Position numbers and translations under genes: made by a program
Notes under the pieces: model-generated
The model's database searches: none
Seen by the model: the letters and a program-made list of their open reading frames with translations, nothing else
What the model was told of the DNA's origin: nothing
Assembly: GCF_023701745.1 (NCBI RefSeq)
Contig: NZ_JAJOZB010000001.1
Location: 7,301,001-7,365,000 of the forward strand
DNA from: Streptomyces sp. RKAG293
GTDB lineage: Bacteria > Actinomycetota > Actinomycetes > Streptomycetales > Streptomycetaceae
Direction of reading: 5' to 3'
Length of the DNA stretch: 64,000 nt
Part shown: positions 23,009 to 30,782 of the stretch, one piece after another
How positions within the stretch are numbered: position 1 is the stretch's first letter
Layout: each line of letters begins with the position of its first letter

Positions 23009-23330
23009 GCGCCTGCAGCGAGAAGTTCCCGATGACCGGGAGTCCAAGCGACGGCAAAGGCACCGCACGTCACGGCCGCGAAGGCGCAGGAGACAGACGG
23101 ACGAGCAGTGACTCCGACCCCATCGCGATCGGCGGCGGATCGCCTGGGCACGGTGTCCGCCGGACAACACGGATGGGGAGTGATCGAGCGCCGAGCGTGC
23201 CCTCATCGCGGGCAGTGCACCTGCCTGGATGGCGTCACCCGGTGCAGTGGCAGTCTCACCCGCTGCCGGAGGCAGTCGAAAGCACGCAGGACGAAGTGAC
23301 GAACGTTCCCAGCGGACAAGGAGGTGCGCG
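23009..23330. other. Spacer before the universal stress protein
   Basis: No gene recognised. The end contains AAGGAGGTG, the ribosome site of the next gene. Confidence 0.4.
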
Positions 23331-25024: not shown

Positions 25025-25228
25025 ATGGCTACTGGCACCGTGAAGTGGTTCAACGCGGAAAAGGGCTTCGGCTTCATCGAGCAGGACGGCGGCGGCGCTG
25101 ACGTCTTCGCCCACTACTCGAACATCGCCGCCCAGGGCTTCCGCGAGCTGCAGGAAGGCCAGAAGGTCTCCTTCGACGTCACGCAGGGCCAGAAGGGCCC
25201 GCAGGCGGAGAACATCGTTCCCGCCTAA
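25025..25228 (+). CDS. Cold-shock protein (CspA family)
   Basis: ATG 25025 after TAAGGAGAC gives a 67-residue single cold-shock domain. RNA-binding motifs RNP1 (KGFGFIEQ) and RNP2 (VFAHYS) are intact, and it ends [12 protein letters not shown]. CspA proteins bind single-stranded RNA and DNA and melt structures. The long leader, an adjacent DEAD-box helicase and a following strong terminator fit a cold-induced RNA-remodelling pair. Confidence 0.97.
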
Positions 25229-25285: not shown

Positions 25286-25604
25286 TCGCTCGCAAGTCTC
25301 CCCGCTCCTCTCATCGCGGATCGGGGCGGCTGCGGACATCAGTGCCCATGCCGCACGGCAGGCGGCTCCGCGGTCCACGACCGCGATGTGCTCACTGCCC
25401 CGGACCCGCCCTGTGCGGGTCCCGCTCCCGGCCTGCATCTTTGGCAGTGCCGCTCGTGGCGAAGTGTGTTCGCGCGGTTGATTCCGCGCCGCTTCGGTCC
25501 CGCCTCGTTCTTCTCATTCTTTCGGTTCGTTCTTGCGATGCCTTCGCGCGGCGTGTTCGCTGCTGGGGCCTCCTGGGTGCGCGCCGTATCCAGGAAGGTT
25601 CTCT
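25286..25604 (+). promoter_or_regulatory. Promoter and leader of the DEAD-box helicase
   Basis: No gene is supported. The 3' half is pyrimidine-rich and relatively AT-rich (TTCTTCTCATTCTTTCGG, about 25507-25525). It contains a GCGCGG/CCGCGC hairpin at 25472-25489. The length and composition suggest a structured 5' leader, usual for cold-regulated helicase genes (inference). Confidence 0.4.
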
Positions 25605-27175
25605 GTGAACCCCGTACGTTCCAACCGCTCGTATTCCAGTTCCAGCTCAGGTTCCAGCGGTCGCGGTGGTGCTTCGAGCGCCGGCGGCTACGGCCGTTCG
25701 GCCCCGAGCCGTTCCGGTGCGCCGAGCCGTTCCGGCGGCTACGCGGGCTCCGGTGGCTCCGGCCGTTCCGGTGGCTATGCGGGGTCGGGCCGTTCCGGCG
25801 GTTCGAGCCGGCGCCCGTCCGTCCAGGGTGAGTTCGCCCTGCCGGTCACTCTCACTCCGGCGCTGCCCGCGGTGGAGACTTTCGCCGCGCTGGACATGCC
25901 GGCCGCCCTGCTGCAGACGCTGGCGCACGAGGGCATGGCGGTGCCGTTCCCCATCCAGGGCGCGACGCTGCCCAACGCCCTGGCCGGCCGCAACGTCCTG
26001 GGCCGCGGGCGCACCGGTTCCGGCAAGACGCTCGCCTTCGGTCTGGCGCTGCTCGCCAGGACCGCCGGACAGCGCGCGGAGCCGCTGCAGCCGCTCGCCC
26101 TGGTCCTGGTCCCGACCCGTGAGCTCGCCCAGCAGGTCACCGACGCCCTGACCCCGTACGCCCGCTCGCTGCGGCTGCGGATGGCCACCGTCGTCGGCGG
26201 CATGTCCATCGGACGGCAGATCCACCTGCTGCGCGGTGGCGCCGAAGTCGTCGTCGCCACGCCGGGCCGGCTCAAGGACCTCATCGACCGTGGCTCCTGC
26301 CGCCTGGACCAGGTCGGCATCACGGTGCTCGACGAGGCCGACCAGATGGCCGACATGGGCTTCATGCCGCAGGTCACCGCGCTGCTGGACCAGGTGCGCC
26401 CGGACGGGCAGCGCATGCTGTTCTCCGCCACCTTGGACCGCAACGTCGACCTGCTCGTGCGCCGCTACCTGCACGACCCGGTCGTCCACTCCGTCGACCC
26501 GTCGGCCGGCGCGGTCACCACGATGGAGCACCACGTGCTGCACGTGCACGGCGCCGACAAGAACGCCGTGACGACGCAGATCGCCGCCCGTGACGGCCGC
26601 GTCATCATGTTCCTCGACACCAAGCACGCCGTGGACAAGCTCACCGACCACCTGCTGAACAGCGGAGTGCGCGCCGCGGCACTGCACGGCGGCAAGTCCC
26701 AGCCGCAGCGGACCCGCACCCTGGAGCAGTTCAAGACCGGACACGTCACCGTGCTGGTCGCCACGAACGTCGCCGCCCGCGGCATCCACGTCGACAACCT
26801 CGACCTGGTCGTCAACATCGACCCCCGAGCGACCACAAGGACTACCTCCACCGCGGCGGCCGCACCGCCCGCGCCGGCGAGTCCGGCAGCGTCGTCACCC
26901 TGGTCCTGCCCAACCAGCGCCGCGACATGATCCGCCTGATGCGCGACGCCGGCATCACCCCGCAGACCGCACAGGTCCGCCCCGACGAGGCCGAACTGAC
27001 CCGCATCACCGGCGCCCAGGCCCCCAGCGGCATCCCGTGCGTCATCGCCGCACCGGTCGTGGAACGCGCCAAGCGCAGCGCCTCCGCCACCCGCGGCCGC
27101 CGCAGCCGCTTCGCCCAGGCCCGCCGCTCCGGATCAGGCGAACGCCCGGCCCCCCGCGTGACCCTCGCTGCGTAA
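25605..27175 (+). pseudogene. DEAD-box RNA helicase, single frameshift near the C-terminus
   Basis: GTG 25605 follows AGGAAGG. The protein starts with a Ser/Gly/Arg repeat region (about 5-65). The helicase core follows: Q-motif region, GRGRTGSGKT (motif I), PTRELAQQ, TPGRL, DEAD box as LDEADQM and SAT. Domain 2 reads to VLVATNVAARGI and DLVVNIDP. At a CCCCC run (26822-26826) the frame shifts. One more C gives SDHKDYLHRGGRTARAGESG (motif VI) and a normal end at 27175. Unshifted, the product stops at 26930 without motif VI. Likely cold-induced; partner of csp. Confidence 0.9.
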
Positions 27176-28852: not shown

Positions 28853-29011
28853 GCGGTTCTCCTGCCCTTTCCGTACCGTGTCGTGCCCCCGTGCCTGCTG
28901 GGTGGGGTCAGGATGCCTGTCGGCTGCTGCCCCGAAAATCTATCGCGTGTGAAGTAGACATTCGCTCCTGGGTGTGGGTAATGTTCCTCTCGTAGCCAAG
29001 AAGGAAGCAGG

Positions 29012-29036
29012 GCGCGGCAGACATGAACTGCCGCGC
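29012..29036. promoter_or_regulatory. Nine-bp perfect inverted repeat
   Basis: GCGCGGCAG, seven bases, then CTGCCGCGC, just before the GCAGT-rich leader. It may be an operator at the leader promoter or a hairpin ending leftward or rightward transcripts. Confidence 0.4.
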
Positions 29037-29040
29037 AGAG

Positions 29041-29721
29041 TAGGTGGCACGGTGATGGAATCCGGCGGCCAGTGCAGTGTTGGTGGGTCGCAGGGTTGAT
29101 TGCCGGGCCGGGCCGCCCCGGGAGGGGCCGCCGCGCAAGACCGCAGTACGGAATGTGCAGGTCTGACACGCAGTAACCGCAGTTCAGCAGTACCGCATCA
29201 CGCAGGACAGCAGTACCGGATGCAGTTGCAGTACCAGCAGTGGGTTCAGTGGTTTCTCGGTGAAGGCGTCGGGCTGCGGGCGCGCGTGCCGAGAGGTTCG
29301 GCAGTGGGGTTCTAAGCCAGGGCAGTTGCAGGACGGGCGACGGGGCTGGCTGCCGGACGGTGGTGCAGTCAAGGCCACCAGCAGTTCGCAGTACTCGTAG
29401 TGAGAGCAGACCAGTAGTTCGCAGTTCCGGTTCGGTCAGTGATTCGGTTCAGAGGGAACGGAGGGGTTGAGCGCCATCGGGATCGCCCGGGTCGAGTGTT
29501 GAACCCCGGGTACCGCAGGACATCGATAGTGAGGTGGTCTCCGGTCACGCATTCGCGATCCCCGCACCCCCGACCACGGTCGGCAGTGCGGACACAGTAG
29601 GCCGGCGCAGTACTAGGGCCGGCCGGTGGTGTTTTCCGTCCTTCGGGGCCCTGGCGCTACAGCGCCAGGGCCCCTCCACACGTTCGTTACTCGTCCTTCG
29701 CGTGTTTCCCAGTGAGGTGAG
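29041..29721 (+). repeat. GCAGT-rich leader upstream of the MerR-like gene
   Basis: No protein gene is supported here. The word GCAGT occurs 17 times on the forward strand (starting at 29074, 29143, 29170, 29179, 29187, 29210, 29222, 29228, 29237, 29301, 29322, 29365, 29381, 29388, 29421, 29583 and 29607). I found none in reverse orientation. Nine copies fall within 29143-29241. Several are followed by ACC or TTG. Spacing is irregular (6-23 bases in the dense part). One-strand orientation suggests the signal acts in RNA or as an oriented binding array. Confidence 0.7.
29645..29674 (+). terminator. Strong hairpin just before the MerR-like gene
   Basis: GGGGCCCTGGCG and its perfect complement around CTACAG form a 12-bp GC stem, 48 bases before the ATG at 29722. 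There is no U-tail. It either ends the GCAGT-rich transcript or attenuates the regulator gene. Confidence 0.65.
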
Positions 29722-30048
29722 ATGACAGCAGACGATTCCTTCGCCCGCCTCGATGATGACGACTACCCCGCCTACACCATCGGCCGCGCCGCCGAAATGA
29801 TCGGCGCCAGCCCGGCCTTCCTCCGCGCGATCGGCGAAGCCCGCCTGATCACCCCGCTACGTTCCGAGGGCGGACACCGCCGCTACTCCCGCTACCAACT
29901 GCGCATCGCGGCCCGAGTCCGCGAACTCGTCGACCAGGACACCGCCATCGAGGACGCGTGCCGCATCGTCGCGCTGCAGGACCAACTCGAAGAAGCCCTC
30001 GCACTCAACGAACAACTCCGCACCGACGCCCACCATCCCGCCGCCTGA
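29722..30048 (+). CDS. Short MerR-like regulator
   Basis: ATG 29722 after GAGGTGAG gives 108 residues. After an acidic start comes a MerR-type winged helix (YTIGRAAEMIGASPAFLRAI, then LRSEGGHRRYSRYQLRIA), ending in a helical coiled-coil-like tail (DQLEEALALNEQL). There is no effector domain. Such short MerR-like proteins dimerise through the helix and may act as simple repressors or activators. It follows the peculiar GCAGT leader, which is probably its own 5' region. Confidence 0.88.
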   Translation: MTADDSFARLDDDDYPAYTIGRAAEMIGASPAFLRAIGEARLITPLRSEGGHRRYSRYQLRIAARVRELVDQDTAIEDACRIVALQDQLEEALALNEQLRTDAHHPAA

Positions 30049-30262: not shown

Positions 30263-30478
30263 TCAGCTGAGCAGGATCCGCTGGCGAAGGAGTGGGTGGC
30301 CGTCGCGGCCGTAGGTCTGGCGCTTGAGGAGTTTGATTTTGTTGTTGACGCCTTCAGTGCGGCCGTTGTGGTGCGGCAGGGTCAGGGCTGCATCGACGGC
30401 GGCACGGTCGCGTTCGAGGCTGTGAGCGAAGGAGTGCAGGAACGGCAGGTCAGCCGCGCGGGTGCAGGCAATCCAGCC
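30263..30478 (-). pseudogene. ISL3-family transposase C-terminal remnant
   Basis: The reverse frame LPFLHSFAHSLERDRAAVDA, LTLPHHNGRTEGVNNKIKLL and KRQTYGRDGHPLLRQRILL is the C-terminal end of ISL3 transposases, with the catalytic Glu in TEGVNNKIK. The N-terminal two thirds are absent. It is joined in frame to phosphatase-like sequence. Confidence 0.75.
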
Positions 30479-30782
30479 ACCCAGTGCCTCGCTGTGGACG
30501 AAGGTGCGTGTGCCCTCCGCGTCGATGAGAAGTGGAAGGGTGTGGCCGGCTCGCATCAAGGTGATGTCCAGGCCGTCGCCGGTGGGGGGCGTAGATCACG
30601 GTGACGAATCCGGTTCCGTGGCTTGCGGGCCGGTCGAGGAGGGCCTGGTTGAGCCGGGAGACGTCGAGAACTAGTAGCCCTCCCCGCAGGAACGGAATCT
30701 GGTCCAGTGCGGCGGCCAATACGGGAGCGGTGCGGAAGTCGAGCTCGCCCGTCAACTCAAGGCATTCCGCCGGCGCAGGCAC
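30479..30782 (-). pseudogene. STAS and PP2C gene scraps joined
   Basis: A GTG at 30782 opens a STAS-like start (CLELTGELDFRTAPVLAAAL, GGLLVLDVSRL) that would be an anti-sigma antagonist, but the phospho-Ser segment is missing. It passes directly into PP2C-like sequence (ALLDRPASHGTGFVTVIYAP), shifts frame at a G6 run near 30577-30582 and continues DITLMRAGHTLPLLIDAEG. It then merges with the ISL3 remnant. Three gene fragments fused by deletion. Confidence 0.6.

Follow-up and report, generated by a model that had tools for sequence, protein, structure and literature searches.

A one-strand GCAGT array before a MerR-like gene of Streptomyces sp. RKAG293 lies within a predicted, conserved structured leader RNA

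Introduction

The five-base word GCAGT recurs upstream of a MerR-like gene of Streptomyces sp. RKAG293, always on the same strand. What kind of element does this array mark, and does it act as DNA or as RNA? The stretch analysed here, termed the window, comprises 64,000 nucleotides (contig NZ_JAJOZB010000001.1, positions 7,301,001 to 7,365,000), and feature coordinates are those of the window unless the host genome is named. A preliminary description proposed either a structured noncoding RNA or an oriented DNA-binding array. To our knowledge, few sequence-specific RNA regulators are known in streptomycetes, which are without classical sRNA chaperones; we know of neither Hfq nor CsrA in these bacteria.

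The GCAGT array

Between positions 29041 and 29721, a direct count gives 17 GCAGT words on the forward strand and no ACTGC, as first claimed. The array (29074..29611, +) contains six of its words as GCAGTAC and is noncoding in relatives. Dinucleotide-preserving shuffles of the region give an expectation of about 2.5 words, with a maximum of 9 in 2000 shuffles, and in 500 shuffles every 5-mer stays below 17. Among all 680-bp stretches of the window, the array is the densest 5-mer cluster. The densest 100 bp holds eight words, one fewer than the nine in about 100 bases reported before. A single ACTGC lies just outside the region, at 29027, where it is the 3' arm of the 5' hairpin described below. 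The words sit in linker regions, except for the last two, which are inside the 3' module.

The spacing is irregular, as had been noted, with 6–162 nt between words. A simple tandem repeat was rejected on this ground and because Tandem Repeats Finder does not detect the array as one. The 9.27-Mb host genome contains 55 close GCAGT triples, 23 of which are in leaders of MerR-like paralogues. Two other clusters that were checked, near 2859444 and 4420018, are ordinary short tandem repeats. Three close GCAGT words also occur in the window at 23212–23276, upstream of a universal-stress-protein-like gene; they are without the RNA module and are probably there by chance. A protein-coding repeat was likewise rejected, since alignment gaps are not multiples of three and the GCAGT words share no reading frame. 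Leader indels between relatives are mostly not multiples of three, and the stop-free stretches of the leaders are hardly longer than in shuffles.

The predicted accessibility of GCAGU is mildly raised (0.45, compared with 0.37 for letter-matched words). Where flanks are poor, GCAGT words are identical at 0.51 versus 0.24; this conservation test has little weight, since aligning a common word biases it. Pairing of GCAGU with the ACUGC arm of the 5' hairpin or with GGGUACCGC of the 3' module was rejected, as the flanking letters and the variant modules disagree.

Structure of the leader RNA

The array is part of the leader of the MerR-like gene, as proposed, but a larger RNA extends around it, and the array occupies the variable linkers of that RNA. 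Conservation and covariation give good support to a structured noncoding RNA of about 690 nt, predicted to extend from about 28990 to 29675. This conserved RNA can exist with almost no GCAGT.

The predicted promoter TAGACA-N18-TAATGT (28955..28984, +) was identified in an alignment of 54 leaders, which places the predicted transcription start near 28990. An operator-like box, AATCTAT-N11-TAGACAT (28937..28961, +), overlaps the -35 element and is conserved in the same leaders. The promoter region is near-invariant in this alignment (AAATCTRT, about 11 bases, TAGACAT, about 17–18 bp from -35 to -10, TAnnGT). A pattern search of the 9.27-Mb host genome with AATCTRT-N11-TAGACAT returns exactly seven sites, all before MerR-like paralogues, and the reversed control pattern returns none.

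The 5' hairpin, GCGCGGCAG-ACATGAA-CTGCCGCGC (29012..29036, +), has a 9-bp stem that covaries in 50 distinct sequences. Across leaders, the loop consensus is the heptaloop ANAYGAA. The outer pairs are compensatory, with 22 cells changed on both sides versus 6.4 in shuffles (0/500 as high). The linkers of many copies contain GCAGT words and repeated structured blocks around GGTTCNAAGCCAG. The multibranched 3' module (29472..29632, +) is about 161 nt long, is closed by CGCCATC/GGTGGTG and contains helices that covary in an alignment of 62 sequences. Across copies, it measures about 160–172 nt and is closed by CRCCATC/GATGGTG. Its covariance model, R1, scores 164 bits at the window locus. In a 32-pair model of the module, 96% of cells are formed, compared with 33–38% when the model is slid, and 12 pairs are changed on both sides versus 6.5 in shuffles (0/500 as high). 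Because the helices of both the 5' hairpin and the 3' module covary, a structured RNA is favoured over a DNA array, in line with the former of the two original proposals.

A terminator-like G+C hairpin of 13–14 bp (29644..29675, +) precedes the regulator gene (29722..30048, +), which agrees with the earlier mention of a strong hairpin followed by such a gene. Relatives contain 77 distinct versions of this hairpin, with a median of 14 pairs and -34 kcal/mol, and it is kept through compensatory changes. It has no U tract, and its role as a terminator is therefore presumptive. The distance from the hairpin to the start of protein homology is usually 24–26 nt and is 46 nt in the window. A conserved, covarying RNA thus lies between the predicted promoter and the gene start, as in a cis-acting structured leader.

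The MerR-like regulator and its paralogues

The regulator has 108 aa and consists of a DNA-binding domain only. It matches Pfam MerR_1 at 35.1 bits (gathering threshold, 21.6), and its nearest solved structure is BldC (6AMK, E 0.0024). It was not identified as HspR, as it scores 43.2 bits against an NCBIfam HspR equivalog cut-off of 105. The host genome contains eight close copies of the protein, including the one in the window. Five of their leaders have a strong GCAGT array on the coding strand and one or two have a weak one; the others have none. The covariance model finds the 3' module in seven host-genome copies, that is, in all but one of the eight paralogues.

The paralogue at host-genome position 8266245 (L007) has the operator-promoter box without the RNA, so the promoter can exist without the leader. 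Another, at 8633770 (L006), has an internal TGA in the MerR-like frame and a weak GCAGT array and is possibly a decaying copy. Just downstream of the MerR-like gene in the window, a reading frame on the opposite strand (30263–30559, -) resembles the C-terminal remnant of an ISL3-type transposase. An ISL3 transposase is annotated near the plasmid copy L143. A gene for a small hydrophobic protein (MGPLLLVLLLALILFGAGFALKILWWV...) recurs downstream of L247 and L252, which are copies without a MerR gene, and beside L005 in the host genome.

Distribution of the RNA

We sampled 150 leaders of homologous genes, with relatives and 80 named loci of Streptomyces and Actinacidiphila as the sources. The 3' module is present in 120 of them. 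Strand enrichment in homologous leaders had been set beforehand as a check, and it is found: the 120 leaders contain 1180 GCAGT and 158 ACTGC, with GCAGT ahead in 116. The corresponding counts in the 54 aligned leaders are 512 and 55, and GCAGT is 5.6-fold over Markov expectation. In the same leaders, GCAGTAC occurs 163 times versus 3.5 expected (47-fold), and its reverse complement occurs only twice. Most leaders have one ACTGC, located in the arm of the 5' hairpin.

Of 100 relatives, 55 contain a match to the covariance model of the 3' module; in a class-wide sample of 395 genomes the number is 82, from 20 genera. Named records with the RNA belong to Streptomyces (including linear plasmids), Embleya, Kitasatospora and Nonomuraea. 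At one locus (L294; G437 C1, 2301188 and 2304094), two near-identical RNA-MerR units are inverted and about 3 kb apart. Phage records contain no match to the RNA, and a phage origin was rejected because four IMG/VR pattern matches were also unconfirmed by the covariance model. No Rfam 15 family reaches its gathering threshold in the whole window. The best sub-threshold match, Scr6925 (22.5 bits versus 50), is essentially to the terminator hairpin of that family. A search of open papers turned up no description of the RNA, and the family is apparently new.

GCAGT number differs greatly among families. Family f20 has a short form of the entire element, which spans about 170 nt from promoter to module and contains 0–2 GCAGT, often as one GTTCGGCAGTACC. 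In the Streptomycetaceae, arrays of the same word reach 24 copies. GCAGT is expanded in at least three families (f1, f19 and f48). For example, f19 arrays contain nine, four and five words (L299, L303 and L333), and an f48 array contains nine (L295). That separate families have multiplied one word on the same strand speaks, short of proof, for a word that functions in RNA and against neutral expansion of a repeat. At L110, the linker upstream of the 3' module contains a 21-bp tandem repeat (GCAGTACCGCAGGTGAAGTAC-like, about seven copies), which shows one way in which arrays can grow.

The cold-shock and helicase neighbourhood

A cold-shock protein gene (csp; 25025..25228, +), read directly from the sequence, and a DEAD-box RNA helicase gene (25533..26930, +; Pfam DEAD, 147 bits; start codon uncertain) are near the array, and the label of a cold/stress locus is apt. 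Among 64 named loci with the RNA, a csp gene lies within 8 kb at 37, a DEAD-box helicase gene at 30, a CBS gene at 27 and an SCO5918-family gene at 24. Three arrangements recur: csp-DEAD-CBS-SCO5918-MerR without the RNA, csp-DEAD-CBS-SCO5918-RNA-MerR and, in several species, RNA-MerR-csp-DEAD-CBS-SCO5918. In the third arrangement the RNA heads a series of RNA-remodelling genes, and for this reason Csp is named as the likeliest partner. A sponge role, or Csp as the partner, is a hypothesis that gene neighbourhood alone favours; the cold-shock-protein target motifs known to us are not GCAGU. Some orthologous MerR-like genes at the end of a csp operon are without the RNA, so regulation of the gene is not always RNA-dependent.

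The Streptomyces coelicolor homologue, SCO5917, is the most polysome-enriched gene at 42 °C (9.2-fold), in a translationally induced group that also includes six csp genes (PMC6009599). This figure concerns the homologue gene only, and several species with SCO5917-type gene order are without the RNA. The top polysome recruitment of SCO5917 on heat shock makes the control of such genes a testable question.

Discussion

We give roughly even chances to a cis-acting leader or attenuator RNA in which multiple GCAGU words are docking sites for a single-strand RNA-binding protein; of the mechanisms considered, it has the best support. Transcription would start near 28990, from the promoter whose operator-like box is probably bound by the MerR-like protein in autoregulation. 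In the folded RNA, linkers rich in GCAGU(ACC) and partly single-stranded would join the 5' hairpin to the multibranched 3' module, and the strong terminator-like hairpin would form the end, about 24–46 nt before the regulator start codon. Most transcripts would probably stop at this hairpin, releasing an RNA of 400–900 nt. Stress would permit readthrough into the MerR-like gene or its translation; in several species this would extend to the downstream csp and DEAD-box genes. The protein docking on the GCAGU words would most plausibly be the cold-shock protein, an RNA chaperone that is often encoded alongside, and its level would feed back on leader folding. We infer the transcription, termination switching, binding protein and signal of this scheme from sequence. 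The missing U tract and a GCAGU accessibility only slightly above the letter-matched level stand against the attenuator model.

A purely cis role fits poorly with the RNA copies in which promoter, hairpin, array, module and terminator are all present and the MerR gene is missing. These copies favour a stand-alone, trans-acting large noncoding RNA, a protein sponge or RNP scaffold for which the MerR-like gene would be a frequent passenger or read-through product. Five genomes of family f20 have a conserved tandem arrangement, in which an RNA1 without a gene precedes RNA2; in four of the five, a MerR gene comes after RNA2 inside the examined stretch. RNA1 sequences are 0.815 alike across genomes versus 0.778 to RNA2 of the same locus, and a trans function is therefore conceivable. 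Arrays of up to 24 words, like those of protein-sequestering RNAs, and the seven copies per genome point the same way. However, the great majority of copies are directly before a MerR-like gene, several gene-less copies keep a relic of the MerR start and may therefore be truncations, and the tandem RNA1 modules are partly degenerate. We consider a trans-acting RNA of this kind rather doubtful. A riboswitch or thermosensor, with the 3' module sensing a ligand or temperature and the GCAGT linkers as flexible spacers grown by a slippage-like process, is unlikely. It would account for the many invariant bases of the module and the terminator-like hairpin that follows, for the two mutually exclusive pairings possible for GGATCGC, for a linker length that varies widely with GCAGT number (r 0.83) and for the 21-bp repeat in one relative. 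Slippage alone, however, predicts neither the irregular spacing nor the finding that at least three families, dissimilar in the rest of their linkers, have all expanded this one word in the same orientation.

An oriented array bound by the regulator on double-stranded DNA seems very improbable. The same-strand, multi-copy pattern and the adjoining gene for a DNA-binding protein suit it, but the words are inside covarying RNA structures, and a conserved promoter lies upstream of them. The putative operator is a single box of another sequence, and MerR-type sites are normally dyads. Returning to the docking-site reading, a broader version is put forward tentatively, as something short of probable. 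The RNA family would be large and widespread in actinobacteria, one RNA word would have multiplied independently in its linkers, to as many as two dozen copies, and the RNA would form a multi-site platform for a sequence-specific RNA-binding protein, working in cis and also, where copies are gene-less, in trans. The platform would couple the RNA chaperone and helicase system to the MerR-like regulator. The array noticed first is the feature by which a conserved structured RNA family shows itself most plainly. A multi-copy leader RNA that occurs on chromosomes and linear plasmids, is linked to csp and helicase genes and carries a one-strand word is a concrete bait for finding such a protein.

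Several known systems resemble parts of this RNA. The CsrB/RsmZ sponge RNAs also combine many copies of one short one-strand word with hairpins in noncoding sequence. In contrast to the CsrA word, which has GGA in hairpin loops, GCAGU(ACC) is in linkers and only mildly loop-biased, and the array comes with a conserved 3' module and with a gene downstream. Assignment to CsrB/RsmZ was rejected, as a repeated GGA-containing word in hairpin loops is not present, and we know of no CsrA in Streptomyces. TRAP/HutP-type attenuator leaders likewise have repeated short sites before a terminator and operon. TRAP sites, however, are (G/U)AG at a regular spacing of 2–3 nt; the irregular 6–162 nt found here led to rejection of a TRAP-type attenuator, and we know of no ring-forming protein. 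The cspA-type leaders with Csp feedback are similar in being long, structured and linked to RNA chaperone and helicase genes, whereas the RNA described here precedes a MerR-like gene first and, with no Rfam match, has no recognisable relation to them. A conserved multibranched module, a terminator-like hairpin and a gene start in succession recall riboswitch-like motifs of Rfam, but nothing in Rfam 15 matches. ANTAR-target RNAs are also in actinobacterial leaders, which in that case hold protein-responsive hairpins, and ANTAR genes are near one copy of the RNA. The ANTAR-target RNAs have paired hexaloops with A1/G4 (PMC8164766), whereas the 5' hairpin, the part of the leader compared with this dual motif, has the 7-nt loop ANAYGAA.
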